The position numbers and the translations under genes are program-made. 64,000 nt of DNA from Melieria omissa. Lineage: Eukaryota > Arthropoda > Insecta > Diptera > Ulidiidae. Shown here piece after piece: positions 2,213-59,880 of the stretch. How positions within the stretch are numbered: position 1 is the stretch's first letter; each line of letters begins with the position of its first letter. The DNA is taken from positions 14,423,032 to 14,487,031 of the forward strand of contig OZ020268.1 in the NCBI GenBank assembly GCA_963971225.1. Reading direction: 5' to 3'. The notes beneath the pieces are model-generated. The model saw nothing but the letters and a program-made list of their open reading frames with translations. It ran no database searches and was not told the DNA's origin.

Positions 2213-3658
2213 ATTTTGAGTTGCTGACCTTTCTGGTCAAATATGGTGTAAATATTGAGTTCTTTTGTTTAGTTTGACTCAAAATAATTTGTGTAAATTT
2301 ATTAATTTTCCCCATATATCACATAGTGATATTAGTTATTATTAGGTATTTTTAATTTAATAATTTTCCTCATATACCACATAATGTAATGTTTATTAAA
2401 CGTATAGCACAACTCTCTACCTGACTCTATTACACACTTTCTAAGCATTATGTACAATGAAAGCTTCTAGAACTTCTGCAAGTTAACCTCAACTTTTTCA
2501 TAGCACCGAATATGTAAATTGTTTATTTGGCGGATTAAAAGAGATTTAAACAAATGGAATGGGATACAACTTACAGGACTTTACCTTTTTTAAGCTTCAA
2601 GTTCTGCCTCTTCATACCTCCATGCAAACTTTGCCTTATTTCAAACACTTTTGTACTGTCACAACTTTATTTTCCTTACAAACTTTTCTGTAGTTATTCT
2701 ACCCTTTATTAAATTTTGTCTTTGTTCTCTACCCGTTCGCATAACTTCACTTTATTAACTAAACCAATTTAATTGTGTCCTGTCAAATTCTACGTTAAGT
2801 CCTCTTAACTCACGCTCGTTATTTTCCCAGTCAAATTTCATTCAATCCTACCATCCTTCTCTCCTTTTACTATTTCTTAACCCATGCTTCTTCAACTTCT
2901 ACCTTATCTCCTCTTAACTCCTTTGCTATTGTGTTGTCATATGGCAACATGCTACTTTGTGAATGTCTGCTTTCAAGAATAAATTTTTTTGTTGGTCCTT
3001 AGAATTGTTTGAAGTTTTAGATATATGTATTTAATAAAAACATTTTAAATTTAGTACTTTTTTAAGTTTAAAAAAGCCAATTACACCACGAGATATGTGC
3101 TCATAACTGAAATAAGAGGGGAAAACGTGTTTTTCAAAAATTTTTCGAAAACGCTTCTTAAGAAAATTTTTAGATTTTCAGTTTCGTGTTCAGCAGCCGA
3201 AAATTAGTCTAAAAAATACTTTTATTTTTAGGAGCACGCGATGAACCCCATTTTTTTCGAGTAGTTTTATGCACGTTTTTTTAATGTTATATCTTTACAC
3301 AGTAAAAAAGGAAGCAGGACAAAAAAATAAATATTAAGTTTTACTTTTTACTTCAATTCAGATATTTTTTCTTTTTTTTAAACAGTTTTGGCTGAAGTAA
3401 ATGAAGAAATATTCGGTTTTTAGTTTAAATAAAAAATTTTTTGTTTAAATAATTATTACATACACAACGATATGGTTGCTGTAATATTCAAATAAGATCC
3501 GGCAACAAATATTAAAAAAATTATTATGGGATGTTGTTGACATAAGCACACACACAGAAGATTAAATCGATAAATTAAAATTAAAAATGTAATTGAATTA
3601 AATTTTTTTGTTTCTTTTTTTACTATTATAAAGATGTAATATTAAAAAACGTACATAC
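2213..3658. other. AT-rich non-coding sequence with a pyrimidine-rich tract
   Basis: No gene is visible. A local imperfect duplication of about 60 bp lies at 2299-2390 (ATTAATTTTCCCCATATA and a variant). From about 2560 to 2960 the plus strand is strongly enriched in C and T, with scrambled CTTCAACTTCTACC-like words, as in a decayed tandem repeat. The part from about 3120 to 3210 matches 14046-14130 in inverted orientation. Confidence 0.5.
3120..3215 (+). repeat. Dispersed repeat fragment, inverted partner at 14046-14130
   Basis: This stretch contains TTCGAAAACGCTTCTTAAG followed by TCAGTTTCGTGTTCAGC. The reverse complement of the same order of words is found at 14046-14130, inside the hAT-like nest. 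It is a short relic of an interspersed repeat with no coding content. Confidence 0.5.
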
Positions 3659-4100
3659 TGTTACGACAATAACTTCTCTAAGTTCGTATCTGGATTGTGC
3701 TTGAAAAATAAAACCACTTCAATTATTCAGCGCAAACGCAGTCAAAAACCAATAATCACTTTATTTACAGATTTACACTTTGCTTGTATCTACACTTGTT
3801 ACTACTTTGCTTGTTCAAATCAGACTTGACCCTTTGCGCTGCACATTGCTGCCTGTATACCTGTCTGGTTATCGCGCCGACTGTTCTCGCACATTCCAAT
3901 TGGAAAATGCTCGACCATTCTCGCACAGCCCATTACCATCGCGAGCCATCCTTGCCATATCGGAATTATAACAAGTTTGCCATGCTCTAAAGTGCGTGCC
4001 TAAAAGTATGCCTGTAAAAGTTTTCAAGCACAGCAACAGAGTGCCTCATCGTTAGAATACTTTGGTTCTTTAAACTTAAATAAAAATTAAATTTATTAAT
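3659..4100 (+). repeat. LTR-like dispersed repeat, copy 1
   Basis: The sequence starts TGTTACGA and is collinear with 40561-41043. Shared landmarks in order are GAAAATAAAAC/GAAAAATAAAACC, CAATCACTTTATTTACAG, CTCGACCATTCTCGCACAG, CTTGCCATATCGGA and TGCCTAAAAGTATGC. The TG start and the AATAAA-type signal near the 5' end suggest a solo LTR. I could not find a convincing target duplication or a CA end, so this stays an inference. Short open frames inside it are conserved only because the repeat is; I see no retroelement protein. Confidence 0.55.
3997..4011 (-). promoter_or_regulatory. Su(Hw)-like motif in LTR-like copy 1
   Basis: The minus strand reads GCATACTTTTAGGCA. This 15-mer is identical in the second LTR-like copy (40927-40941) and in two Transib-like copies (44159-44173 and 58464-58478). 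From memory it resembles the TGCATAYYTTT-type site of the insulator protein Su(Hw) that gypsy carries. Binding here is inference. Confidence 0.3.
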
Positions 4101-6854: not shown

Positions 6855-8121
6855 CGTGGGTGGTCCGATAAGTACTTAGCCTACAAAAGAAAAACGAAAA
6901 TTTTGGAAAAGTGGCGATTTATTTCTCAACGTAGTCTCCTTTCAACTCGATACACTTGACTCAGCGATGCTCCAACTTCCTTAACCCGTCTGAAAAATAC
7001 GTTTTCTGGAGGCCTCCGTGGCAGCGATAACCTCCTCATTCGACTCAAATTTCTGCCCGGTGAGTGACTTTTTCAAGTTTGGAAACAAAAAGAAGTCACA
7101 CGGGGCCAAATCTGGAGAATACGGTGGATGGGGCAGCTGTTCGTAGCCTAATGCGATCAATTTGGGCGTGATGACGGCGGAAGTGTTAGCTGGTGCGTTG
7201 TCATGGTGGAAGAGCACTTTTTTCTTCGCCAAATGGGGCCGTTTTTTCTGCAATTCGGCATCGAATCGGCCCAATAGTTCGGCATAGTAGAGCCCTGTGA
7301 CCGTTTTGCCCTTCTCCAGGTAGTCGATGTAGATCACACCTTGTGTATCCAAGAAAACGGTGTCCATAACCTTTCCGGTCGATGGGACAGTCTTTGCCTT
7401 CTTCGGAGCACATTCGCCGGGCAAAGTCCACTGTTTCGACTGTTCCTTGGTCTCTGGTGTGTACCAGTGAATCCATGTTTCGTCGACGGTCACGAAACGA
7501 CGCAGAAACTCCTTCGGATTGCGCTTAAACAGTGTCAAACACTGCTCTGAAGTGGTCTCACGGATGCGCTTGTTGTCCGGAGTGAGCAAACGCGGCACCC
7601 ATCGAGACGACAGCTTTCTCATACCCAATATTTCATGCAGGATATGACCCACGCGGTCTTTTGAGATGCCGACTGTCTCAGCTATCTCGTGCACCTTCAA
7701 TCGGCGGTCTGCCAATACGAGATCGTGGACATTTGTCACGTTATCCTCCGTGGTAGCCATTTTTGGGCGTGGCTCATCAAAAACTGACGTGCGACCACGT
7801 TGAAACTCGTTAAACCAATTTTTGACGGTCGCCATTGAAGGAGAAGAGTCACCGTACACAGCATCCAAGCGCTCTTTGATTTCGCTGCGCGATTTTCCTT
7901 CCAAAAACAAGAATCGAATCACTCTTTTTCCATTTTTCTAACATCCGCGGACACGTTCGTTTCCACACGCGGAAACGAACAAAACAAACAAAACTACAAA
8001 TCCAATATGGCTGAAATTTTGACAGTAGCCGTCTACGAGGATGTACTACACGATAGTAAATTTCTCTTACGACAGTGGCACCATCGGGCGGTGGGGCTAA
8101 GTATTAATCGGACTGCCCACG
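6855..8121 (-). mobile_element. Full-length mariner element, inactivated
   Basis: The ends are a 27-bp inverted repeat: the left end begins CGTGGGTGGTCCGATAAG and the right end, read on the minus strand, begins CGTGGGCAGTCCGATTAA. Both continue to ACTTAGCC. The element is flanked by TA on each side (6853-6854 and 8122-8123), the target used by all mariners. Its length of 1267 bp is that of a complete mariner. It encodes one transposase on the minus strand, which is broken (see the pseudogene entry), so it could move only with help. The protein resembles the irritans/vertumnana side of the family; I hold that subfamily call loosely. Confidence 0.92.
6919..7944 (-). pseudogene. Mariner transposase, D,D34D type, broken
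   Basis: This enzyme would bind the element's ends and carry out cut-and-paste movement. The main open part (6981-7922) holds the N-terminal helix-turn-helix region and all three catalytic Asp: the first in TVDETWIHW, the second in HHDNAPAN and the third in LAPCDFFLF, with 34 residues between the second and third. Three lesions are visible. Near the start, the ATG at 7942-7944 is out of frame with the body, consistent with loss of two bases in an A run. Near 6997-7017 the frame shifts. The C-terminal frame (LRKLEHR, then VKCIELKGDYVEK to the stop at 6919-6921) is interrupted by TGA at 6961-6963, where the family normally has Trp. Only GTG is in frame at the start of the long open stretch. Confidence 0.9.
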
Positions 8122-11708: not shown

Positions 11709-12457
11709 CAGGTATGCGCCTATGAAATTATGCGCCGGTAATAATTTTTGAAAAAAAAACGTTTATTGTGAGGAAATGATTACAATTTTATTCTTCAAAG
11801 TAATGGCCATCGCTAGCTACACATTTTTCCCATCTCTCAGGCAATTTATGGATGCCTCGCCAAAAAAATGTTTCGTCTTTTGCCTGAAACCAATCATCGA
11901 TCCATTTTTTGGCTTCTGCGTGAGAATTGAAGCGCTGTTCCGTTAATGCGTGGCCCATCGATGCGAACATGTGATAATCCGAAGGCGCCAAGTCTGGTGA
12001 GTAAGCCGCATGAGCAAGAGCTTCCCAGTTGTACGATGCAACCAATTCTTTGGTGGCTCTAGTGCGGTGTGGTGGTGCGTTGTCATCGAGGAAAATCACT
12101 TTGTGTGGCCTGGCTTCATATTCTGGGCGTTTTTGGCGTATAGCACGGTTCAAATCGGCCAATTGTTGTTGGTAACGTTCACCATTAACCGTTTCACCAG
12201 GTTTGAGAAAGCGTTTTTCTTCAAATGGTAACACAAAATTAACTGTATCCGCAAATCGTAATTTGTAGGCACGTAATCCGACATTTTCCGGAGCGTCAAA
12301 CAATGCGTTGTTGGATGAAACTTGACAAATTGTGAACTGAATATTGTTGACATATGACAGAAGAAGTAAACATGACATTTGGTACGGTTCCGAAGTTTAT
12401 AAATATTCGGCTATTTACCGCTATATGTCGTTACCGGTTTCATAGGCGCATACCTGG
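11709..12457 (-). mobile_element. Internally deleted mariner
   Basis: The ends are CCAGGTATGCGCCTATGAAA on both strands (20 bp, no mismatch seen), flanked by TA at 11707-11708 and 12458-12459. The length is 749 bp against about 1.3 kb for an intact mariner, so roughly 0.5 kb has been lost from the middle. What remains codes for the two ends of a mauritiana-like transposase on the minus strand. It lies inside the hAT-like element and was therefore inserted later. Confidence 0.9.
11788..12336 (-). pseudogene. Mariner transposase remnant, internal deletion
   Basis: The minus strand encodes a short N-terminal piece (about APENVGLRAYKLRF to LPFEEK) joined in frame to the C-terminal part starting FLKPGETVNGERY. 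The same N-terminal pattern (ENVRLCAQF ... LQFEK) is seen in the mariner at 49288. The deletion therefore seems to remove everything between about residues 30 and 175, including the DNA-binding helices and the first catalytic Asp. The second and third Asp remain (FLDDNAPPH and LAPSDYHMF), although the residue before the second, normally His, is Asp here. The C-terminal block KLPERWEKCVASDGHYF is well kept. It is not a functional enzyme. Confidence 0.85.
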
Positions 12458-31904: not shown

Positions 31905-32875
31905 TATCTACAGTTTAAATTTCATGTTTGTAGCTTCAGCGGTTTGGGCTGAGCGATGATGAATCAATCAATCAATCAATCAGTCAGTCAGTTAGAGAAA
32001 ACAATCTATGTATATAAAAATGGAGGCGGTACCACGCCCTCTTGTCCAATGCTCACAACTTTCTTCTATTCGAATTATGCTACCAAGTGGAAAGTTCGTA
32101 CCAAGTTTCACTGATGTGAGTGTACTGCATAACTGTTGGATTATAAAAAATGTGCCACGCCCCTTGACCAACGCCGATCAAATCTCATCAGTAGAATGAC
32201 ACATCTATGAAACGACGGTGCACCAATGCATTTCAATGCTGTGCGATTTACAATGCCGCAGCTATTCCACTCAAGAGAATTGAACTGTATGGGCGGTGCC
32301 ACGCCTTGTTAAATACCCGCCTCATTCGCTCTGCCGAAAGATATGATTAAATGGTAGGTTCATACCAAGTTTCATTGATGTACGACTTACAGTTCTGCTG
32401 CATAAAAAATGTGCCACGCCCCTTTTCCAACGCCCATAAAATTTTAACAGTAAAATTACACATCTATGAAACTACACCAATCCATCATCTATGACCATCT
32501 ATGACGGTACACCAAATTTAAATGCAGTGCGACTTACAACTCCGAAGCTATTCCATTTAAAAGATTTGAGCTGTATGGGTGGTGCCACACCCCTTTGTTC
32601 AAGACCCACCCCGTTCCTTCTATTGAAGGACATGGTTAAATAGTAAGTTTGTACCAAATTTAATTGATGTGTGACTTATGGTTCCAAAGTTATTGTCTAA
32701 AAATATATTCTGGTGGTGCCACGCCCCGTTTTCTCGACTTTTCTTTTCTCCTAAACCTTTACGTAACAATTTCAAACAAACCCGCCGAAGGAAGTATCCA
32801 AGTTGGTCCAGCCGTTCTCGAGTGATAAGCAGTCGAACGGACCACGTTTCATTTTTATATATAAGTATAGATGAC
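31905..32875 (+). repeat. Dispersed repeat with internal tandem units, copy 1
   Basis: It starts with a (CAAT)n run (31961-31992). It then carries repeated modules: GCGGT(A/G)CCACGCCC..., ACCAAGTTTCA(C/T)TGATGT, AATGTGCCACGCCCCTT and CATCTATGAA. These recur at about 280-300 bp intervals and in the repeat at 59080-59880. The right end, CCAGCCGTTCTCGAG to TATATATAAG, resembles the 3' tail of degenerate insect retroelements, but I see no coding domain and cannot name the family. Confidence 0.6.
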
Positions 32876-35732: not shown

Positions 35733-36249
35733 TCCTTTCGACCCCGAAATGTACCCTGTGTCTCAGTATTACTTTTTGGTATTTAAATCATGAAACACTT
35801 ATGAAGACTAAGAAGTGTGCACACGACATTTAAAATCGCCAGAAGAATTCTAGAGCTATTTTACTTTTGAAAAATTTTCGCTTAAAACGGGTTAAATAAA
35901 TCTTGGGTCAATATTTTTAATTACAGAAAATTTATTTATAATTTATGAAAAAATACAAAATTATCACTTTTTGATTTATTTAATTTCTTTTATAATAAAA
36001 GGGGTATTGATCAAACTCGCCCAATTCGTAGACTTCAATTAGAACACAAACTTTTCCTGATATCGCTGAAAATTATTGGAAATTATTTTGAGGATAATAG
36101 TAAAATTTTTGTAATTTGCTTTTAATTTACTTCTAAAATTATTAATTTGTTGGTGCCTACTTAAATCAAACCCATGAATCAATCGAAGCTTTTGCTATAA
36201 GATGACAAATAGGAGAAGTTGCTCTCAGGCAACTTTGGGGTCGAAAGGT
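35733..36249 (-). mobile_element. TTAA-flanked (piggyBac-type) MITE, family P1, complete copy
   Basis: It is inverted relative to the copy at 53930-54452. The left end is TCCTTTCGACCCCGAAATG (first base mutated from C) after TTAA at 35729-35732. The right end is CAACTTTGGGGTCGAAAGG plus one mutated base, before TTAA at 36250-36253. It is 517 bp and non-coding. Orientation is given relative to the 53930 copy. Confidence 0.87.
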
Positions 36250-36411
36250 TTAAAAATGCTTTTCTGACACCATTAACAGAAAACTGCGCCTCTTCGATTG
36301 CGCCTCTTTCTCTGCTGAGTTTTTCTCCCTCCACTTTGACACAAGTTTTACCTCCACAAATCCACATTGCCACATTGAGGCTCATTCGAGTTTGTGTAAA
36401 AGAATTAATAT

Positions 36412-40151: not shown

Positions 40152-40156
40152 CGCTG
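40152..40156. repeat. Left 5-bp target duplication of the Transib-like element
   Basis: CGCTG directly precedes the left CACAGTG end, and the same five bases follow the right end at 41975-41979. Confidence 0.78.
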
Positions 40157-40195
40157 CACAGTGTCGCGAGTTCATAGTAGCGAGGGACAAAAATA
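40157..40195 (+). other. 23-RSS-like left end
   Basis: The heptamer CACAGTG occupies 40157-40163, the spacer 40164-40186 (23 bp) and the nonamer-like ACAAAAATA 40187-40195. It matches the vertebrate consensus nonamer at 7 of 9 positions. Confidence 0.6.
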
Positions 40196-40560
40196 TGTAG
40201 AAGGAATAGTCATACGACAATGACATTTTGCACATATGATTTTGTTATAAAGAGAAGTTAATACGCCAAAAATTTAATCGCCCCACGGACACGCCCACCT
40301 CCCATACAAACCGAATACCAAATTGACAGTATCTCGGAAACTATAAAAGATATATTGATGAAATTTATTTTTTTTATTATTGAAAATTTGGTACAGCAAC
40401 TCATATAATCAATATAAAGATATATACCAATAATGGTTTCGATCAACCTACAAATACGATTGTAATAAAAAAAGAAAATATTACAAAAACTACAAATATC
40501 TGTGCATACTTATGCGCTCTTAAGTAGTTTCAAACTCAAATAGAAAATAATAATAGGTAC

Positions 40561-41043
40561 TGTTACGAAAATCCAAGTTTGTTTTCCAAGGTTCGTTTTG
40601 ATTGTGTTTGAAAATAAAACAACTTCAATTAATCAGCGCAAAAACGCAGTCAGAAATCAACAATCACTTTATTTACAGATTTACACTTGTTCTACTTTAC
40701 ACTACTACTATTGCATGTTTCCCCATTGCTTGCTCTACACAGACTCCCCCATTGCGCTGCACACTGCTGCTTTTGTACCAGTTTTCTTATCGCGCCGAAG
40801 TTTCTTGCAACTTCCAATTGGAAAGCGCTCGACCATTCTCGCACAGCCCATTTCTTCGAGAACCATGCTTGCCATATCGGACTATACCAAGCGAATTATA
40901 CCAAATTTGCCGTACTTCAAAGTGCATGCCTAAAAGTATGCTTGGAAAAGCGTTCATGCACAGCACAGAGTGTCTCTTCGTTTCAATACCTTTCATTGAA
41001 TTCAGTAAAGCATATATTTTCATTAAAAATTACAATTTGTTAA
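40561..41043 (+). repeat. LTR-like dispersed repeat, copy 2
   Basis: It starts TGTTACGAAAATCC and is collinear with 3659-4100, sharing CAATCACTTTATTTACAG, CTCGACCATTCTCGCACAG, CTTGCCATATCGGA and TGCCTAAAAGTATGC. It lies inside the Transib-like element, so it arrived later. The right border is approximate and I could not confirm a target duplication. Confidence 0.55.
40927..40941 (-). promoter_or_regulatory. Su(Hw)-like motif in LTR-like copy 2
   Basis: The minus strand reads GCATACTTTTAGGCA, identical to 3997-4011, although the surrounding repeat copies have diverged clearly. Confidence 0.3.
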
Positions 41044-41946
41044 TTTGTTTGTACAGCTAGGACAATCGGTTTCCCATGATGAATTATTCAAATTAAACCC
41101 TCTATATCTATTTTTGACAAAATTTTAAATACGTTTTTTGTAAAATTGCATTATATCAGAGTTTCGGTTTTCATGTTTTACTTTAATTTTCCTATTAATT
41201 GCTATAGTTGGTTCTGAAGATATTCACTGTTTCTTTTGAAAAGTTGCCTTGATGGCAAGCAACCCAGTATTACCGAAGCCTTCCATCGAATCTACCTTTT
41301 TTTATGTGATTTTTCTCAATCAAGTGATGTTTGCATATTTTTACAAGCAAACATTTTTAGCTCAATCGATGCGAGCAGTGGTCGCTATGTTTTCCTGCCA
41401 ACCAGGCTGCAAAAAGGACTCTAGTTTTGACTGCATACGTCACTGAAAATGTTGAATTTCTTAAAAACGTGCAAGTTTGTGTAGCTAAAGTCCATAGTTT
41501 CTATTAATACATACGTTCAGCTATATTACACTGTACAATTTCGAAGTAGAAAGAAGTAGTTTTTTTAAAAGCTTATCTAAAAGTTTGCACATTGCACTTT
41601 TATTCCTACGACTTGACTTTTTTTCAAGTAATGGTGCAAGGAACATGGAACGCAAAACAAAAGGGGGAAAGCTTCCAAAGAGTTCCAAAAATAGTATATT
41701 TATAGAATATATTTACTTAAAATAAGGTTCCATGGGAAATTTTTCGACAAAAGTCCTCGAACTTACATTCAACAAATTCCAATAATTTCTACCCAACTCA
41801 ACAACCTTCACAAAGTGCAAGTTTGGTGGCCTGTCATCAGTATATAAATTGATATTTTTAAAATCCCTTTTCACATTTTAGTAAATTGAGGTATTTACTT
41901 CAGTACTACAAACTTATTTTTCTACATTTACGACATTCAGTTTTTT

Positions 41947-41974
41947 GATTTTTGTCCCTACTCGCGACACTGTG
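41947..41974 (-). other. 12-RSS-like right end
   Basis: Read inward on the minus strand, CACAGTG occupies 41968-41974, the spacer TCGCGAGTAGGG 41956-41967 (12 bp) and the nonamer-like ACAAAAATC 41947-41955. It matches the consensus nonamer at 8 of 9 positions. Confidence 0.62.
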
Positions 41975-41979
41975 CGCTG
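41975..41979. repeat. Right 5-bp target duplication of the Transib-like element
   Basis: CGCTG is identical to 40152-40156. Confidence 0.78.
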
Positions 41980-43297: not shown

Positions 43298-43789
43298 AGA
43301 CACAAGTAATTTTTAGTTTGAAATTTCTTTCTGCTCAAATGTCAGATTTCGCAATTTCTTACATTTCAGCCACTGAGGGCTGCTGAGGTACACATTTTGA
43401 TTGGCCGAAAAGTGTCAGGTTAGAATTTGGGTTGCTTTGACATTGATGGTGTTTTATGGCAGCTGCCAACTGTTGATTGCCTTTGCGTGGTCGTGCATTA
43501 GCGCAAAGGTATGAGTGAGTGTACGTTTGTGTGTATTTGCATTCGTAGAGTTATTGGGACTTGCAAAATAAATGTTAACCCAATTTGTCGAACGTCAGCA
43601 AGGACGTAGAATTTTAGATGAAATATAAATAGACCACAAATGAATGTAATCTGCAGTTGAACTGCAAAAAATCACACTTGAATATTTGATGTGCTTATTT
43701 TAAAGAGTCAGAAGTCATTGTCATAAGCCATGAGTTGAAAATGAAAGCATAAAATTCAAGATTTTGCTTTAAAAGTAGACAACACAGTG

Positions 43790-44599
43790 CACAGTGATTC
43801 GACTCCATACAACCGTGGGACAAAATTAGAAGGAGTGGTATGTTCTTCTTAAAATTTGGTATACTAACATAGTTAAACATGGTCTGCTGAATTGAAATCT
43901 CCATTTAGTTTTTCTTAAACTGTTATAGTTTAGCAATGCCTGAGACTTAAATTTGCAATTTTCGTCGTTTTTGTTTAGCTATAGCACCAAGTGTGTTGGC
44001 TAGATTTTTCAGATTTTACATTTAATCGGTAACATCAACATTGATTATTGCAAATAGTAACAAAAACTGTCTTAGGACAGTTTTATTTTGCAATAAAAAC
44101 CATAGTAATAGATGTATGTTTTGCATTTTTGCATATTTTATCATTTTTCGTGCTGATTGCATACTTTTAGGCATAAATTAAATAAATTTTGTCGAAAAAT
44201 ACGTGTTTAGACCACTTTTCAAATTGAATTATTTTCTGAGATCGGAAGATATCGGAGAATGTGTTTATATTATTCGACAAAGAAAGAATGCTTTTTAAAA
44301 TAAAAAAAATCCAAGAACATACTTTCACATAATTTTTAGATATTTTCCTCTAAGTTTTTGCAATTTTTAGATTTTTAATTTGGAAAAATATTTTGAATTA
44401 AAAGTGATGTAAAAGCCCCAGCTTTGTAAATTTTGAGAAAACATTAAAAGCGAAAATGGCGATTAATTAACTAATTAATTTTTTGCACAGATTTTTTGGG
44501 GTTTTCTTAGTTGGAGTTTCACCTTTCAAATGACATCAAAATCGTTAAATTCTGAGTCCATAAATTTTTTTAATTATGTCTATGGGACGAATCACTGTG
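43790..44599 (+). mobile_element. Transib-like element, family T2, copy C
   Basis: Both ends start CACAGTGATTCG. CAGTG is duplicated at 43785-43789 and 44600-44604. On the left a nonamer-like ACAAAATTA follows the heptamer after exactly 23 bp. On the right ACATAATTA follows after 13 bp. It is 810 bp and non-coding. Compared with copy D (58333) it has about 240 bp more near the left end but lacks a stretch near the right, so each copy is a different deletion product of a longer parent. It carries a Su(Hw)-like 15-mer at 44159-44173. Confidence 0.72.
44159..44173 (+). promoter_or_regulatory. Su(Hw)-like motif in Transib-like copy C
   Basis: GCATACTTTTAGGCA is identical to the 15-mer in the LTR-like repeats and in copy D. 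Confidence 0.3.
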
Positions 44600-44660
44600 C
44601 AGTGCGTCAAAAATATTTTTTATAAAATTGTACACAATTTGTTGATCTTTTTGCGTTTGG

Positions 44661-46709: not shown

Positions 46710-49287
46710 ACATCGCATTCGAACATTCATAGAACGAAACTATTTCAGCTGCTTATGTCACACATTCTTTAATAAACAATTGCAACTTTTTAAAGCCAAC
46801 ATCAACAACTTAAAGACGTCATCGCACAAACAAAACAACAAAGCATAAATAAAACTCCTCAAATGCAGCAAAAGGTGGAGTCGAGTTGTAAAGTTCTGGC
46901 GAAATATGTCAAAGAATTTTCCAACATGTTATGACTCAGAATACAGCAAAGTTTTTGCTTAAAATTGCAAAGTGTATGTAATTTGTTGCTGTAGCCACCT
47001 TTGTTATTGCAATGTGCAGAAGAGCAGCACGAAAAGTACAGAAAAATTGGGGCACATTTTGCTGCCATTCCCGCGGCGAGGTCTACGACTTGCGAAAAAA
47101 TAAAACAGAGGCTGCCATACATTTGTGTCGGTTGCAAGTGGCATAACAGCAACAACAAGACGCTAGCCAAAGAGCCGTCAAGGAAAGTGCAAAATAAAGT
47201 TGATTTCCTGTCGCGTGCACTTTAAGTGAAATGCGCTCGAGTGCACATGGCTTTGTGTGTGAGTGTGTGTGTGGCACATCACTCACCTGCAATGGGACGC
47301 GTCGCCACTCTACTCCAGTCACTTCAGTGGCAAGTCAACAACTTTGCCTTTCGCCCTGCGGGTGAAGTGACTGCTTGCGTGTGTTGTTGCCTTCCCGCTT
47401 TATCTGCAACTGTGTGTGTGTGCGTTTATGTGCAGTGTAGAAGCCATTTGTGGTCGAGCATGCATGCAACTCGTATCAAAGTCGCTTTTAGCTTGGCAAG
47501 TGGCACACTTTTTCTTCCTTGCCACCTGCAGTGTTTCTTTATTTAACGCGCACACGCTCCGCCCCAACTCTGAATTTGGCGTTGAAGTTGCCGCAAATTC
47601 ATTTGCAACTCTTGCGTTGCATGCAGCGTTTCGCATTTCGCACCGGCAAAGGTCGCATGTTGGCGCTGCGGTGATTGCAAGCCACAGATAAGCGTAGCCA
47701 ACAGCCAGTTGACGCCTTCGTGCACTGCCAGGCAATGCGGTTGTTGAACTCGAACTGCGAAAACTGAAATGTAAAGAACGCAAAACCTGCTGCGTGCCTG
47801 TGCACTGCGGCGCCACAAAACTTTGCCAGCACCAACGCCAACGTCAACGTCAACGCCAACTGGCCGCGTTCGCATTAATTGCTAATTTTTCATTAATGAC
47901 ATTGCGCCGCAGTGACGGGTCGGTGCGCCGCATCCGGAAGCATGAAAATAATAAGGCAACATAAATTTTGCGCCAATCAACACAATGATAAATACGCGCT
48001 ACGTGCCGTTGCTGTGCAGTTTGGTTTGATGTGCGCGGAAGGACATCAGCCAACCAGCCGCACCCACACTGCTTTGCAATCAATTCCCGCATCTGAGTAG
48101 CTGCCAACCGCGCGGTTGGCAGAATGGCAAAATGATGGTCGATAGTGCGGCGCTTGTGAACGAGTTGAGAAATGGCTTTCGTCGGGCAGCCGGAAGCGCT
48201 GCAAGGCAAAAGACTTCATAATCATTTAACTTAGCACGGCTCAGCGTCCATGCGTAATCCCTGCGGATTGCAAATACCAAAGTAGTATGAAACTTTTCGG
48301 ATCAATAATCGCTGAGCCAGAAGAATGAGAATTCCCAGCTAACTGCGTTTTAATGAAGTACTGTAGTTGCCTCTATAAATAAACACATTCAGACTTTAAA
48401 GTGCTTATTTCATTTATTTTCATTACATTCCTTCATCTCTCATCAAGTTGCATCACTTTATTTTAAGTTTTTAAGTGGCTACTTAGTCTTGAAAAATATA
48501 TTTATGGCTATTTTTATGAATTAATTGTGAGGAGACAAATTTGTATTATAATATATTTTTTTAAAGTTTCTTTATGCGTGGTTTAAATTTAAAAATTAAT
48601 AATAATAAATGATAAAAATTAGATAATAATAAATTATAAAAATTAATAATTAAATAAGTATTATTTTGATACAAAATAAGCACAACAGCAACAACAACAA
48701 GCTACAATTCTGTGTGTATCATTGTTATGAAAAAAGTATTGCACAACTGAAACTGTTCTATTTATTGGAAACAAATGAACCAATAAGTTGTTTGATTAGC
48801 ATTAATCTGGCTCTCGCTGGATGCAGAATTGGCTACTTGAAACTTGACATTTGATATTTCATGTTAATGACCCAAAAAAGGTTAGAATTTCATCGTAGAC
48901 TGACGCTCATAAATTATATTAATATTTTGACTAACATTTGAATTATATATTATATTATTTTTAAATTATTTCATCATTAAATTATTATTTTTTCTATATT
49001 AAACTTTCAGTCTCTCAGAAAAAGAAACCATAAATCACTCTTCAATGTTGATGACCCAAAAAAAGTTTAGCATTTCATCGTCGACTGACGTTCGGAAATT
49101 AGATAAATATTGTTACCAACATTTTAATTATTTAATATAATATTTTTAAATTATTTCATCATTAAATTATTTTTTTTCTATATTAAAATTTCAGTCTCTC
49201 AGAAAAAGAAACCATAAATTACTCTTCAAGGTTGATGACTCAATAAAAGTTTAGCATTTCATCGTAAACTGACGTTCGGAAATTATA

Positions 49288-50208
49288 TCAGGTGTACAAC
49301 TTTGCTTCCGCCGTTTTTTTCCAAAATTAAAAGCTTTATTGCGAAAAAGTGCTTAGAGATGTATTATTCAAAGTATTGTCCGTCGCTAGCGACAACTTTC
49401 TCCCATCTTTCCGGCAATTTTCGGATCCCGGCTCGAAAAAAGGAGTCCTCTTTTGACGCTATCCATGAAGCAATCCATTTTACCAATTCTTCGAAGGATT
49501 GAAAATGTTGATCTGCCAGGCCGTGTGCAATCGAACGGAATAGGTGGAAGTCAGAAGGGGCGACATCTGGGGAATACGGCGGGTGGGGCAAGACTTCCCA
49601 TTTCAGCGTTTCCAGGTACTTTTTGACCACTTTTGCGACGTGAGGCCGAGCATTGTCGTGTTGGAGGATGACTTTGTCATGTCGCTCTTGATATTGTGGC
49701 CGCTGTTCTTTTAGCGCGCGACTAAGGCGCATCAGTTGCGTTCGGTAGCGATCTCCTGTGATGGTTTCACCCGGTTTTAAGAGCTCGTAGTAAATCACAC
49801 CGAGCTGAGTTGTTAATCTTTGAAGGTTTTTTCTCTTCCACCACCATGTTTGTCTTCGACATCGAAATCACCATTTTTAAAACGTTGAAACCACTCCCGA
49901 CACGTTCTTTCACTCAGAGCAGCATCACCGTAAGTTTCTGAGAGCATTCGATGCGCTTCAGCTGCATTTTTTTCGAATTGTAACAGAAAAGTAAAACTTC
50001 CCGCAAATGGCGAGAATTGGGCACATAAACGGACATTTTCGAGCGTGAATAATACGAAAACAAGAACAACTGTCACTGAAACGGCGATGACAATTCGTTA
50101 GGCACTGTCCACACTCACTTTAAAGGCATTACCATCTATGTATTTCAACCAGCCTCAGCCGGTACAGCCACCTATCGGAAAACGGCGGAAGCAAAGTTGT
50201 ACACCTGA
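49288..50208 (-). mobile_element. Internally deleted mariner inside the 185-bp repeat
   Basis: The ends are TCAGGTGTACAACTTTGCTT on both strands, continuing CCGCCGTTTT, with TA at 49286-49287 and 50209-50210. The 921-bp length and the split coding sequence show a loss of about 0.35 kb in the middle. The near-identity of the two terminal repeats suggests a fairly recent arrival. Confidence 0.92.
49364..50076 (-). pseudogene. Mariner transposase, internal deletion
   Basis: The N-terminal part, from about ENVRLCAQFSPF through AAEAHRMLSETYGDAAL and CREWFQRFKNGDFDVEDKHG to KTFKD, is followed by a stop. About 10 bp further the frame resumes with QLGVIYYELLKPGETI. So the stretch that normally holds the second helix-turn-helix and the first catalytic Asp is gone. 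The rest is intact: second Asp in QHDNARPH, third in VAPSDFHLF, 34 residues between them, and the end KLPERWEKVVASDGQYFE. It is related to the mauritiana/capitata side of mariners. It cannot make an active enzyme. Confidence 0.88.
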
Positions 50209-50358
50209 TATTAATATTTTTTAAGACATTTTGATTATTATGTTATTTTATAATTTCACATTTAGATTTCATCATTAAGTTATTTCTTTTTTTATATATT
50301 AAAATTTAAGTCTTTCAGAAAAAGAAAAAAAAGCTTTTTTTGAACCATAAACTACTCT

Positions 50359-53925: not shown

Positions 53926-53929
53926 TTAA

Positions 53930-54452
53930 CCCTTTCGACCCCAAAGTTGCCTAAGAGCAGCTTCACCTATTTGTCATCTTATAGCAAAAGCTACGATTGA
54001 TTCATGGGTTTAATTTGAGTAGGCACCAGCAAATTAATATTTTTAGAAGTGAATTCAAAGCAAATTACAACAACTTTTCTGTTATCTCCAACATAATTTC
54101 CAATAATTTGCAGCGATATCGGGGAATGTTTGTGTTCTAATTGAAGTCTACGAATTTCGCGCTTTTGATCAAAGTCCTGTTTCTTTACTAATGTTTAAAT
54201 AAAATCAAAAAGTGATGATTTTGTATTTTTTCACAAATGTTAAATAATTTTTCTGTAATTAAAAAATATTGATACAAAATTTATTTAACCCGTTTCAAGC
54301 TAAAATTGTTCAAAAGTAAACTAGCTCTAGAATTCTAACAAAGAAGCGTAGCGACTTCAAATATCATGTGCACAATTCTTAAGGAAGTATTTCATGATTT
54401 AAATACCAAAAAGTAATATCGAGACACAGTGTAAAATTCGGAGTCGAAAGGG
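53930..54452 (+). mobile_element. TTAA-flanked (piggyBac-type) MITE, family P1, reference copy
   Basis: The ends read CCCTTTCGACCCCAAAG on the left and CCCTTTCGACTCCGAAT on the opposite strand at the right, flanked by TTAA at 53926-53929 and 54453-54456. It is 523 bp. The interior is AT-rich and non-coding. Two other copies lie at 9598-9982 (same orientation, truncated) and 35733-36249 (inverted). Confidence 0.9.
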
Positions 54453-55751
54453 TTAAGCCGCCTTCGGCTTCGGCGTCATCAAGTCATATTGAATAAAGTT
54501 CATATTAAATTGGTTTGAGAAAACTTTTTAATTTCTCGCTCCGCAGCCGTAACAGGAATCTGCTTTCTGTCGTTTCTATTGCAATTCTTAAGACGTACAA
54601 CAACTACAACTAAAGCAGCAGCAAATGTAATAACAACAACTCATTTACGCTTCATAAAAATGTAAGCGTGCCAGCGAATAGCGAATAGCGTCCACACCCC
54701 AAGCGATTATGCGCCAAAGTGCCAGCGCACAGCTGCAGCGGCTCCGCAAGCAAAGTGGCCGGCAACCGCCCGCGACAATGGCACTTTTGTTGGTTCGCTT
54801 CGTAAAAGCGTCCACTTAACTAACTCGAGTCGTTTATTTTGATATTGTTGACGCTGTTGGCCGCATTGCTGTGCTATTCGGTGTTTTTGTTTTTGTTATT
54901 GCATTGTCTTTGCGCTGCTTGTTTCGTGTATTCCCCAGCCGACCCGAACCCAAACCCAGACCCAGACCCAGGCCCGGACAGGGACGCACCAATGCAGCAC
55001 TTGTCAATTACGTTCGTACACGCTGTGACACCCAACACTCGCGTCGCATCGCATCGCCTCGTCTCGCCTCGTCTCGTTTATTGTGATTTTCCTTTGGTGC
55101 TGCTTTGCTTTTGTTTGTTGGCGTTTTTGTTGGGAGTTTTGGCCACACAGCCAAATATGTAGCACGAAAATCCCTCATCAACATGATGAGCGCAATTTTA
55201 ATTCTTGATGATTGCTGCTTACAATCGCAGCGGGACACTTGAGCGGACAGCTGCTCTGCTGCAAGGACATCAGCGAAATTATTATGGCAACGACAGAATG
55301 TTGCTGCTGATTATGGCGATTATGATGGCCGGCACTGAGTGGCGTAATGAGCGCCGCACGCCCAGTCGTTTGGGCGCAGCGCGCTGTGTGCCGCCTTCGC
55401 CGTTTTGTGTACTTCCGGCGGAAGTACAATTTCTGTCTCTCACTTTAATCTGATTTTCATCATGGCCCCACTGATTTTTTCGCTACGTTTTTGGGCTTTG
55501 CGCTGTTCGCTGTTCGTTGTTGACAAAAAGTAATTAACTCATTAGGTGCATGAATGGATGGATGGATGGAATGGGGGGGACTGTGTGCTGCGCTGATTGT
55601 GCGCCTGGCGAGCGCCAACATGCAGCATCGACTGCTAATTCCTCGACAACTTTTACTTGTGTGTACTTGCTTTTTGCACACATTTTGCTTGCTGGCATTT
55701 TTCGTTGGTGTGTGCATTGAACGAATGGTTTTTGTTGGCTTCGTTGTCTGA

Positions 55752-58332: not shown

Positions 58333-59051
58333 CACAGTGATTCGATTGATTATTGCAACCAGTAACAAAAACTGTCTTAGGACCCTTTAGTTTTGCAATA
58401 AAAACGATAGTAATAGATGTATGTTTTGCAGTTTTGCAGATTTTATCATTTTTCGTGCTGATTGCATACTTTTAGGCATAAATTAAATAAATTTTGTCGA
58501 AAAATACGTGTTTAGACCACTTTTCAAATTGAATTATTTTCTGAGATCGGAAGATATCGGAGGATATAATTACATTATCCGACAAAGAAAGAATGCTTCT
58601 TAAAATACAAAAAAATCCAGGAACATACTTTCACATACTTTTTAGACATTTTCCTCTAAGTTTTGCCAATTTTCAGATTTTTAATTTAGAAAAATATTTT
58701 GAAATAAAAGTGAAGTAAAAGCCTACGCTTTGGAAATTTTGAGAAAACATTAAAAGCGATAATGGCCACATCATTTTTTATTCTATATTGAAAGTTTAAG
58801 CAACTTCTTAGTAACCATGTATTTTTAAAATTTTTTTTACTCAATAGACTAAAAAACAGAACATATGAGTTTGAATTTTTTTGAGAAAAAAGTTTCAACT
58901 TTGAGCCGCTTTTGCACAGACACTAATTGATTTTGTACACAGATTTTTTGGGGTTTTCTTAGTTGGAGTTTTTTCTTTCAAATGACATCAAAATCGTTAA
59001 AATCGGAGACCATAAATTTTTTGAATTGTGTCTATGGAACGCATCACTGTA
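58333..59051 (+). mobile_element. Transib-like element, family T2, copy D
   Basis: The left end is CACAGTGATTCG. The right end, on the opposite strand, is TACAGTGATGCG (first base mutated). Flanks are CGATA (58328-58332) and CGGTA (59052-59056), a 5-bp duplication with one change. On the right a nonamer-like ACACAATTC follows after 13 bp. On the left a deletion directly after ATTCGATT has removed the region that holds the 23-bp-spaced nonamer in copy C. It keeps about 150 bp near the right that copy C lacks. It is non-coding. Confidence 0.65.
58464..58478 (+). promoter_or_regulatory. Su(Hw)-like motif in Transib-like copy D
   Basis: GCATACTTTTAGGCA is identical to the 15-mers at 3997, 40927 and 44159. 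Confidence 0.3.
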
Positions 59052-59079: not shown

Positions 59080-59880
59080 GACCCGGCGAACTTCGTCTCG
59101 CACAACATTTTTTTGTATAATGAAATACGCGAGATATCGAAAATATGGCGATGCAAATTGACGAAGAAAACCAACCAAAGAAAGAAAAAGATGCAATCGA
59201 TGCCCACAAATTAGCAAGTTTCAGTAGAGAAATGCACTGCGCTTGACCCAGATTTAAGTTAAATGGGCGGTGCCACGCCCCCTTGTTCAATACCCGCACC
59301 ATTCCCTCTGTCGAAAGATATGAATAAATGGTAGGTTCGTACTTAGTTTCATTGCTATACGACAAATAGTTCAGCGAAATATTTGGCTCAGAAAACATGT
59401 GCCATGCCCCTTGTTCAACGCCCGTTAATTCTTGCCAGTAGCATAACACATCTATGGAACAATGCTATTACTAAATCTCAATGCTGTACACCTTACAATT
59501 TCAAAGATTTTATTATGAAGATTTGGTTTCTATGGGTGGTGCCACGTCCCCTTGTCCAAAACTCGCCCCATTCGCTCTGCCGAAGGACATGACTAAAAAG
59601 TACGTTCGTAGTGAATTTAATTGATATGTGACTTATGGTTTCGAAGTTGTCGTCTGAAAATTTTCAGAATTCATGGTCAAAGCTGGTAGCGATTTTTCAG
59701 CTTTGTCAATAGATTTTTCGAAATGTTCTTTCCACATAAACCTGAACTAACTCAAGACGAATCCAACAAAGAAAACTCCATTAAAATCGGCCGGTCCGTT
59801 TGAGCGTGATGCGCTTACACACATACATACAATTTTTTTTATATATATACATAGATAGAAGAAAGATAGAAGAAAAGAAG
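59080..59880 (+). repeat. Dispersed repeat with internal tandem units, copy 2
   Basis: It starts near GACCCGGCGAACTTCGTCTC and carries the same modules as 31905-32875: GGGCGGTGCCACGCCC, GAAAGATATGAATAAATGGT, TGTGCCATGCCCCTTGTTC and ATGGGTGGTGCCACGTCC. The end, TCGGCCGGTCCGTTTGAG to TATATATATACATAGATAG, parallels that of copy 1. I see no coding domain. Confidence 0.6.

Follow-up and report, generated by a model that had tools for sequence, protein, structure and literature searches.

A Transib-type element with 12/23 ends in Melieria omissa and the young family to which it almost certainly belongs

Introduction

The origin of the 12/23 rule in antibody-gene assembly is an open question. It is raised in an insect by a locus in a 64,000-nucleotide stretch of the Melieria omissa genome (contig OZ020268.1, positions 14,423,032 to 14,487,031; here called the window), where a transposable element, E1, has ends that read like a pair of recombination signal sequences (RSS), one with a 23-bp and the other with a 12-bp spacer. 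To what kind of element do these ends belong, and is their unlike spacing a working feature or an inheritance? We report that E1 is almost certainly a non-autonomous Transib element, shortened by an internal deletion and belonging to a family, family A, the full-length copies of which have an open transposase, and we weigh two readings of the spacing.

Boundaries and ends of E1

The features of E1 in the window, with the duplications and the extent of the element read directly, are:

40152..40156, no strand: left target-site duplication, CGCTG
40157..41974, forward strand: E1, non-autonomous Transib element, 1818 bp including a nested insert
40157..40195, forward strand: 23-type end (heptamer 40157-40163, 23-bp spacer 40164-40186, nonamer 40187-40195, ACAAAAATA)
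about 40561-40985, no strand: nested insert, similar to a solo long terminal repeat (LTR), 76% identical to window positions 3656-4063, with flanks GTAC/ATAC
41227..41228, no strand: internal-deletion junction, where E1 is without bases 630-2251 (approximately) of the 3008-bp element
41947..41974, reverse strand: 12-type end (heptamer 41968-41974, 12-bp spacer 41956-41967, nonamer 41947-41955, ACAAAAATC read inward)
41975..41979, no strand: right target-site duplication, CGCTG

Both ends open with CACAGTG, and their spacers precede a nonamer of the type ACAAAAAT. Compared with ACAAAAACC, the left nonamer ACAAAAATA matches at seven of nine positions and the right nonamer ACAAAAATC, read inward, at eight of nine. 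The two spacers have TCGCGAGT and AGGG in common and differ by an 11-bp block. Direct reading bears out what the original prediction had said of the heptamers, spacers, nonamers and CGCTG duplications, and of the 11-bp difference between otherwise similar ends. The span it gave for the element, 40152..41979, holds for the element together with its duplications; the element proper is 40157-41974. The nested insert, a putative solo LTR judging from its sequence, is missing from at least 15 relatives, in which the match stops at about position 404 of the E1 query and restarts at 834. Relatives lacking it are mostly 1.2-1.4 kb long.

The window was resampled 60 times under a first-order Markov model and scanned on both strands for an exact heptamer and a nonamer with at most two mismatches. 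The resampled windows contained 0.017 12-type and 0.05 23-type signals per 64 kb; a convergent 12/23 pair less than 5 kb apart occurred in none of them.

Copies across the host genome

A search of the 490-Mb host genome with E1 gave at least 71 matching pieces (the best 40 of 4032 candidates were scored, so the counts are lower bounds) and, as the original prediction had anticipated, both further copies and a longer coding element. Forty insertions were examined, namely L001-L030 and ten among L031-L048, eight of the longer loci being duplicates of earlier ones. At least one end was recognised in 37 of the 40. The spacer was 23 bp in all 29 long ends and 12 bp in all 37 short ends; an extra short end in L022 also has a spacer of 12. 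Among the 29 long ends 27 have the exact heptamer CACAGTG, as do 33 of the 37 short ends, and in the remaining six it is mutated.

The alignment used for locating these ends is biased towards spacers of 12 and 23, and a pattern allowing any spacer from 11 to 31 bp was therefore also run. It gave 123 exact matches in the genome and none for the reversed control. Among the 100 matches listed, the spacer is 12 in 52, 23 in 47 and 22 in one. These listed ends form 24 adjacent convergent pairs less than 12 kb apart, of which 23 combine 12 with 23 and one combines 12 with 22; pairs of like ends (12/12 or 23/23) are absent among them.

Both ends are available in 29 insertions. Identical 5-bp duplications flank 21 of these (L022 with its proper end); five others have one base changed, two have two and one has three. 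The duplications are GC-rich and mostly follow C-G-N-C-G (20 exact cases). Copies thus start at CACAGTG, are flanked by 5-bp duplications and keep spacers of 12 and 23, in line with what had been anticipated from the single copy in the window. Across 16 short copies, copies with unreadable ends being excluded, the per-base difference from the majority is 0.023-0.027 in the ends and 0.056 in the body.

The full-length element and its transposase

Ten long loci were examined (L031-L040). Seven are elements of 3003-3009 bp with the 12/23 end layout and exact 5-bp duplications, and differ from each other by 0-0.40% substitutions; L031 is a short-type copy containing other DNA. The transposase is open in all seven: a frame of 66 codons is followed, after a 59-bp GT...AG stretch, by one of 560 codons. 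The two frames would be exons around a 59-bp intron, with splicing and start codon as predicted from the sequence. Relative to E1 as written, the gene lies on the other strand, with the 12-type end upstream and the 23-type end downstream of it. When the genome was searched with the protein, the same seven copies came up as full frames without stops. The divergence of 0-0.4%, together with the intact duplications, makes it very likely that family A moved very recently.

Most short copies are without bases 635-2251 of the long form, and E1, which shares this deletion, is accordingly a deletion derivative of it. Identity between E1 and the long form is 79-87% across the shared parts, and the long ends of the two differ by one spacer base. 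The reading of E1 as a non-autonomous Transib-type element, already made in the original prediction, is supported by this longer partner, which codes for a Transib transposase. The protein of its exon 2 matches the HzTransib transposase over residues 56-524, with E = 1.4e-107. A profile built from 50 sequences finds HzTransib at 9e-184; its matches to RAG1 chains are at 8e-13 and weaker. Asp151 and Asp255 are invariant and Glu464 is nearly invariant among the 50 aligned sequences; the three align with Asp126, Asp225 and Glu436 of HzTransib, which are given as its catalytic residues in the portions of PMC6941560 used here. The predicted fold (mean predicted local distance difference test score 89) is nearest to HzTransib, with 38% identity over 469 aligned residues (PDB 6PQN and others), and next to RAG1.

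Near the N-terminus, the profile alignment places a GRP...KTKRRR segment against GGRPR of the RAG1 nonamer-binding domain, though the match of this stretch is weak (12.9 bits, E 0.24). GRP is found at this place in 90 of 120 listed relatives. Of the 30 without it, 22 are shorter than 600 residues, which may mean that their N-terminus is absent, and eight have 619-716 residues. Among 120 relatives listed, the 11 for which an organism is named are all from insects. Two genomic relatives of 97-98% identity (C4:10640618-10642114 and C4:10243041-10244543) match the family-A transposase from residue 62, and both may have lost the GRP segment or have it in altered form; one of them is flanked by a 12 and a 23 end, 2819 bp from each other. 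One scan of viral contigs gave no relative, and the plasmid collection gave no DNA match.

By analogy with HzTransib and RAG, the family-A transposase would pair the two ends and cut at the CAC of each, by a nick and then a hairpin. The excised DNA would be inserted at a GC-rich 5-bp target (C-G-N-C-G), producing the 5-bp duplication. The N-terminal GRP segment would contact the ACAAAAA motif, its presumed role being nonamer binding.

Other Transib families in the genome

The protein search also found many further Transib frames, with 37-60% identity to family A. Ends were typed in seven further families (B, D, I, H, K, C and J), a non-random choice in which H, K, J, D and I are represented by one copy each. 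One of these families is related to a second element in the window, E2, of which E3 is an older relative:

43790..44599, forward strand: E2, a further element of Transib type that belongs to a different family, with a spacer of 23 on the left and 13 on the right; target-site duplications CAGTG at 43785-43789 and 44600-44604
58333..59051, forward strand: E3, older E2 relative (90-93%), with a mutated right heptamer and target-site duplications CGATA/CGGTA

Three families resemble family A in having unlike ends. Family B (54% identical to A by BLASTP) has 23/12 ends and a CAACG duplication in L069; in its second copy, L070, the same span aligned at 98%, and no exact duplication was found. Family D (60% to A) has 23/12 ends with the duplication CGCTG. 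The third is family I (about 49% to A), to which the transposase-bearing relatives of E2 belong: the downstream end of its copy L076 is that of E2 relatives, a 23-type end adjoining the Transib frame at C1:69724865-69725968, and its other end did not turn up within the 1981 bases examined. E2 has about 40 other places in the genome among the matches listed. Ten of its relatives were sampled, with a spacer of 23 at one end and 13 at the other; nine have exact duplications, and one has extra bases within the nonamer of the long end.

The remaining families have similar ends. Family H is 23/23 with the duplication CAGTG. Family K is 23/23 with CCCTG, one heptamer reading CACAGAG and poorer nonamers (4/9 and 6/9). 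Family C (L071/L072) is 24/24, in two copies that are 99.9% identical and have different duplications, and family J (C4:4344147-4345565) has similar ends, no clear nonamer and no GRP. The GRP segment and an A-rich nonamer are both present in A, B, C and D, neither is clear in J, and I has GRR with ACAAAATT; from these sequences comes the idea that segment and nonamer may go together.

E3 is without the sequence that comes after the first 12 bases of E2. A nonamer-like match at a spacer of 25 in E3 was rejected as a signal, being an internal motif moved near the end by deletion. Two related repeat blocks, 59250-59640 and 32018-32704 (69-76% identity), were observed near E3.

A transposase tree was built by a quick method from 67 rows, comprising A, B, C, D, H, I and J and 60 database relatives. 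It is unrooted, K was left out as its gene was not obtained, D covers 41% of the columns, and the end types are those of the seven families. The asymmetric families A, B, D and I are split from the symmetric C, H and J by a branch with a value of 100 in the Shimodaira-Hasegawa-like approximate likelihood-ratio test. One change suffices for the end types on this tree; 28 of 500 shuffles were equally low, so that the grouping by end type is, on its own, statistically weak. The simplest reading of the sequences would be a single event at one end, in which about one helical turn was lost, or gained if the change went the other way.

Function or inheritance of the unlike ends

Several observations weigh against the account of E1 and family A given above. 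Exon 2 has no Pfam family at E <= 1. Three of the 40 insertions (L020, L024 and L044) have no recognised end. Among the long loci, the full-length copy L033 has a mutated 23-end heptamer, L035 and L040 are longer copies with inserts, and L041-L043 are interrupted long-type copies, 93-99% alike piecewise; two of the seven full-length copies have a change at a column that is invariant among the 50 aligned sequences. The free-spacer pattern covers exact ends only, and the spacers of 23 of its 123 matches are outside the listing. Finally, the family-A copies derive from few founders, and copy number is therefore not independent evidence for a 12/23 requirement.

An even chance is what we give to the ends being a neutral relic: an ancestral loss or gain of 11 bp (10 bp in E2/I) at one end, tolerated and inherited without any preference for unlike ends. 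One event followed by inheritance predicts the asymmetric families on one side of a single branch, as the tree has them, and symmetric relatives evidently move too, the two near-identical copies of family C having different duplications. Against a neutral change, the spacer difference is near one helical turn and has been retained while the letters of the spacers changed among A, B, D and E2/I.

That the 12/23 spacing is functional is a real possibility, if one that we place a little short of even. The family-A transposase would then, free of RAG2, cleave or pair unlike ends better than like ones, and the rule would be a property of the lineage. The 23/12 layout has been kept in A, B and D, and 23/13 in E2/I, though the B, D and I transposases share only about 49-60% identity with the one of A; the absence of like pairs among the 24 listed family-A pairs and the lower divergence of ends than of body in the 16 short copies point the same way. 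Founder inheritance, however, accounts for the counts equally well. Symmetric 23/23 (H and K) and 24/24 (C) families coexist in the genome and E2/I has 13 instead of 12, so a strict 12 is not general. RAG1 without RAG2 shows no 12/23 preference, according to section 6 of PMC8355894, which also states that the 12/23 asymmetry is recognised only once RAG2 joins RAG1.

A chance resemblance, or an element of another superfamily, would suit a window with nothing beyond a single pair but is extremely improbable, chance being ruled out by the pair-free resampled windows and the 123 genome matches against none in the control, and another superfamily by the Transib transposase of the partner.

Returning to inheritance and function together, we suggest tentatively, and with more doubt than confidence, that, among the 23/23, 24/24, 23/13 and 23/12 families of this genome, the four typed asymmetric ones (A, B, D and I) go back to a single loss of about one turn at one end of a symmetric 23/23 ancestor and that, if A prefers unlike ends, a 12/23 rule free of RAG2 existed. 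In family A fixed 12/23 ends go with a transposase that appears intact, and its symmetric relatives in the same genome are matched controls; because the two coexist, whether 12/23 works without RAG2 is directly assayable. Should a preference for unlike ends prove true, the step from 23/23 to 12/23 could be replayed with living relatives.

Other repeats in the window

A mariner-type element at 49285-50211 has inverted ends that match perfectly over 33 bp and, on the minus strand at 49364-49798, a short transposase frame; two more mariner-type transposase frames lie on the minus strand at 6981-7922 and 11788-12378. A repeat at 53926-54458 with ends TTAACCC...GGGTTAA, presumably akin to a piggyBac-type short element, has an inverted partial copy at 36007-36253. 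A scan of the window against Rfam gave no match.

Comparison with known systems

The closest known systems are other insect Transibs. Excerpts of PMC8355894 describe 12/23 ends for Transib5 of Drosophila melanogaster and for Transib2, N1, N2 and N3 of Anopheles gambiae (figure 2 legend, which credits its reference 8); like family A, these have a CAC heptamer, an A-rich nonamer and spacers of 12 or 23 +/- 1 on opposite ends. Compared with these elements by description only, family A differs in that one genome shows many insertions and seven nearly identical copies whose transposase is open. A figure legend of the same source gives 20-22 bp spacers for symmetric Transibs, and its section 6 treats the 12/23 ends of some Transibs as the sole known such asymmetric transposition outside V(D)J recombination. 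The portions of PMC9435367 consulted describe both symmetric and asymmetric ends in Subgroup II Transibs, and in Transibs a region like the nonamer-binding domain with GRP.

HzTransib of Helicoverpa zea shares with family A the transposase fold, the positions of the DDE residues and heptamer-like ends; its ends are described in excerpts of PMC8289069 as symmetric, with little or no nonamer. The aligned part of the solved HzTransib chains begins at family-A residue 53, so the GRP segment is outside it.

The likeness to vertebrate RAG1/RAG2 and its 12/23 RSS extends to the CACAGTG heptamer, the nonamer core, the spacers of 12 and 23, the RAG1-like fold and the GRP segment. In contrast to the antigen-receptor recombinase, family A is a mobile element, with no RAG2-sized second gene in its 3.0 kb: when frames of at least 80 residues were listed for the 3008-bp copy L036, none besides the exon frames exceeded 96 residues; no RAG2-model search was made. 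RAGL/ProtoRAG elements have GC-rich 5-bp duplications and CAC ends as family A does (parts of PMC8289069 and PMC7204232). They differ in having a RAG2-like gene beside the RAG1-like one, where the 3008-bp element is without a second large frame, and, in amphioxus, ends of 27/31 without an RSS nonamer (excerpts of PMC8355894).

As 12/23 Transibs are already in print (PMC8355894, in the parts cited), E1 is not the first of its layout. Nor is a mixture of symmetric and asymmetric Transibs claimed as new, both being reported for Subgroup II in the cited portions of PMC9435367. The 12/23 layout and the N-terminal GRP segment are already known, and E1 adds one more 12/23 Transib. What is added here is a family, young by sequence identity, that combines open frames and 12/23 ends with symmetric relatives in the same genome.
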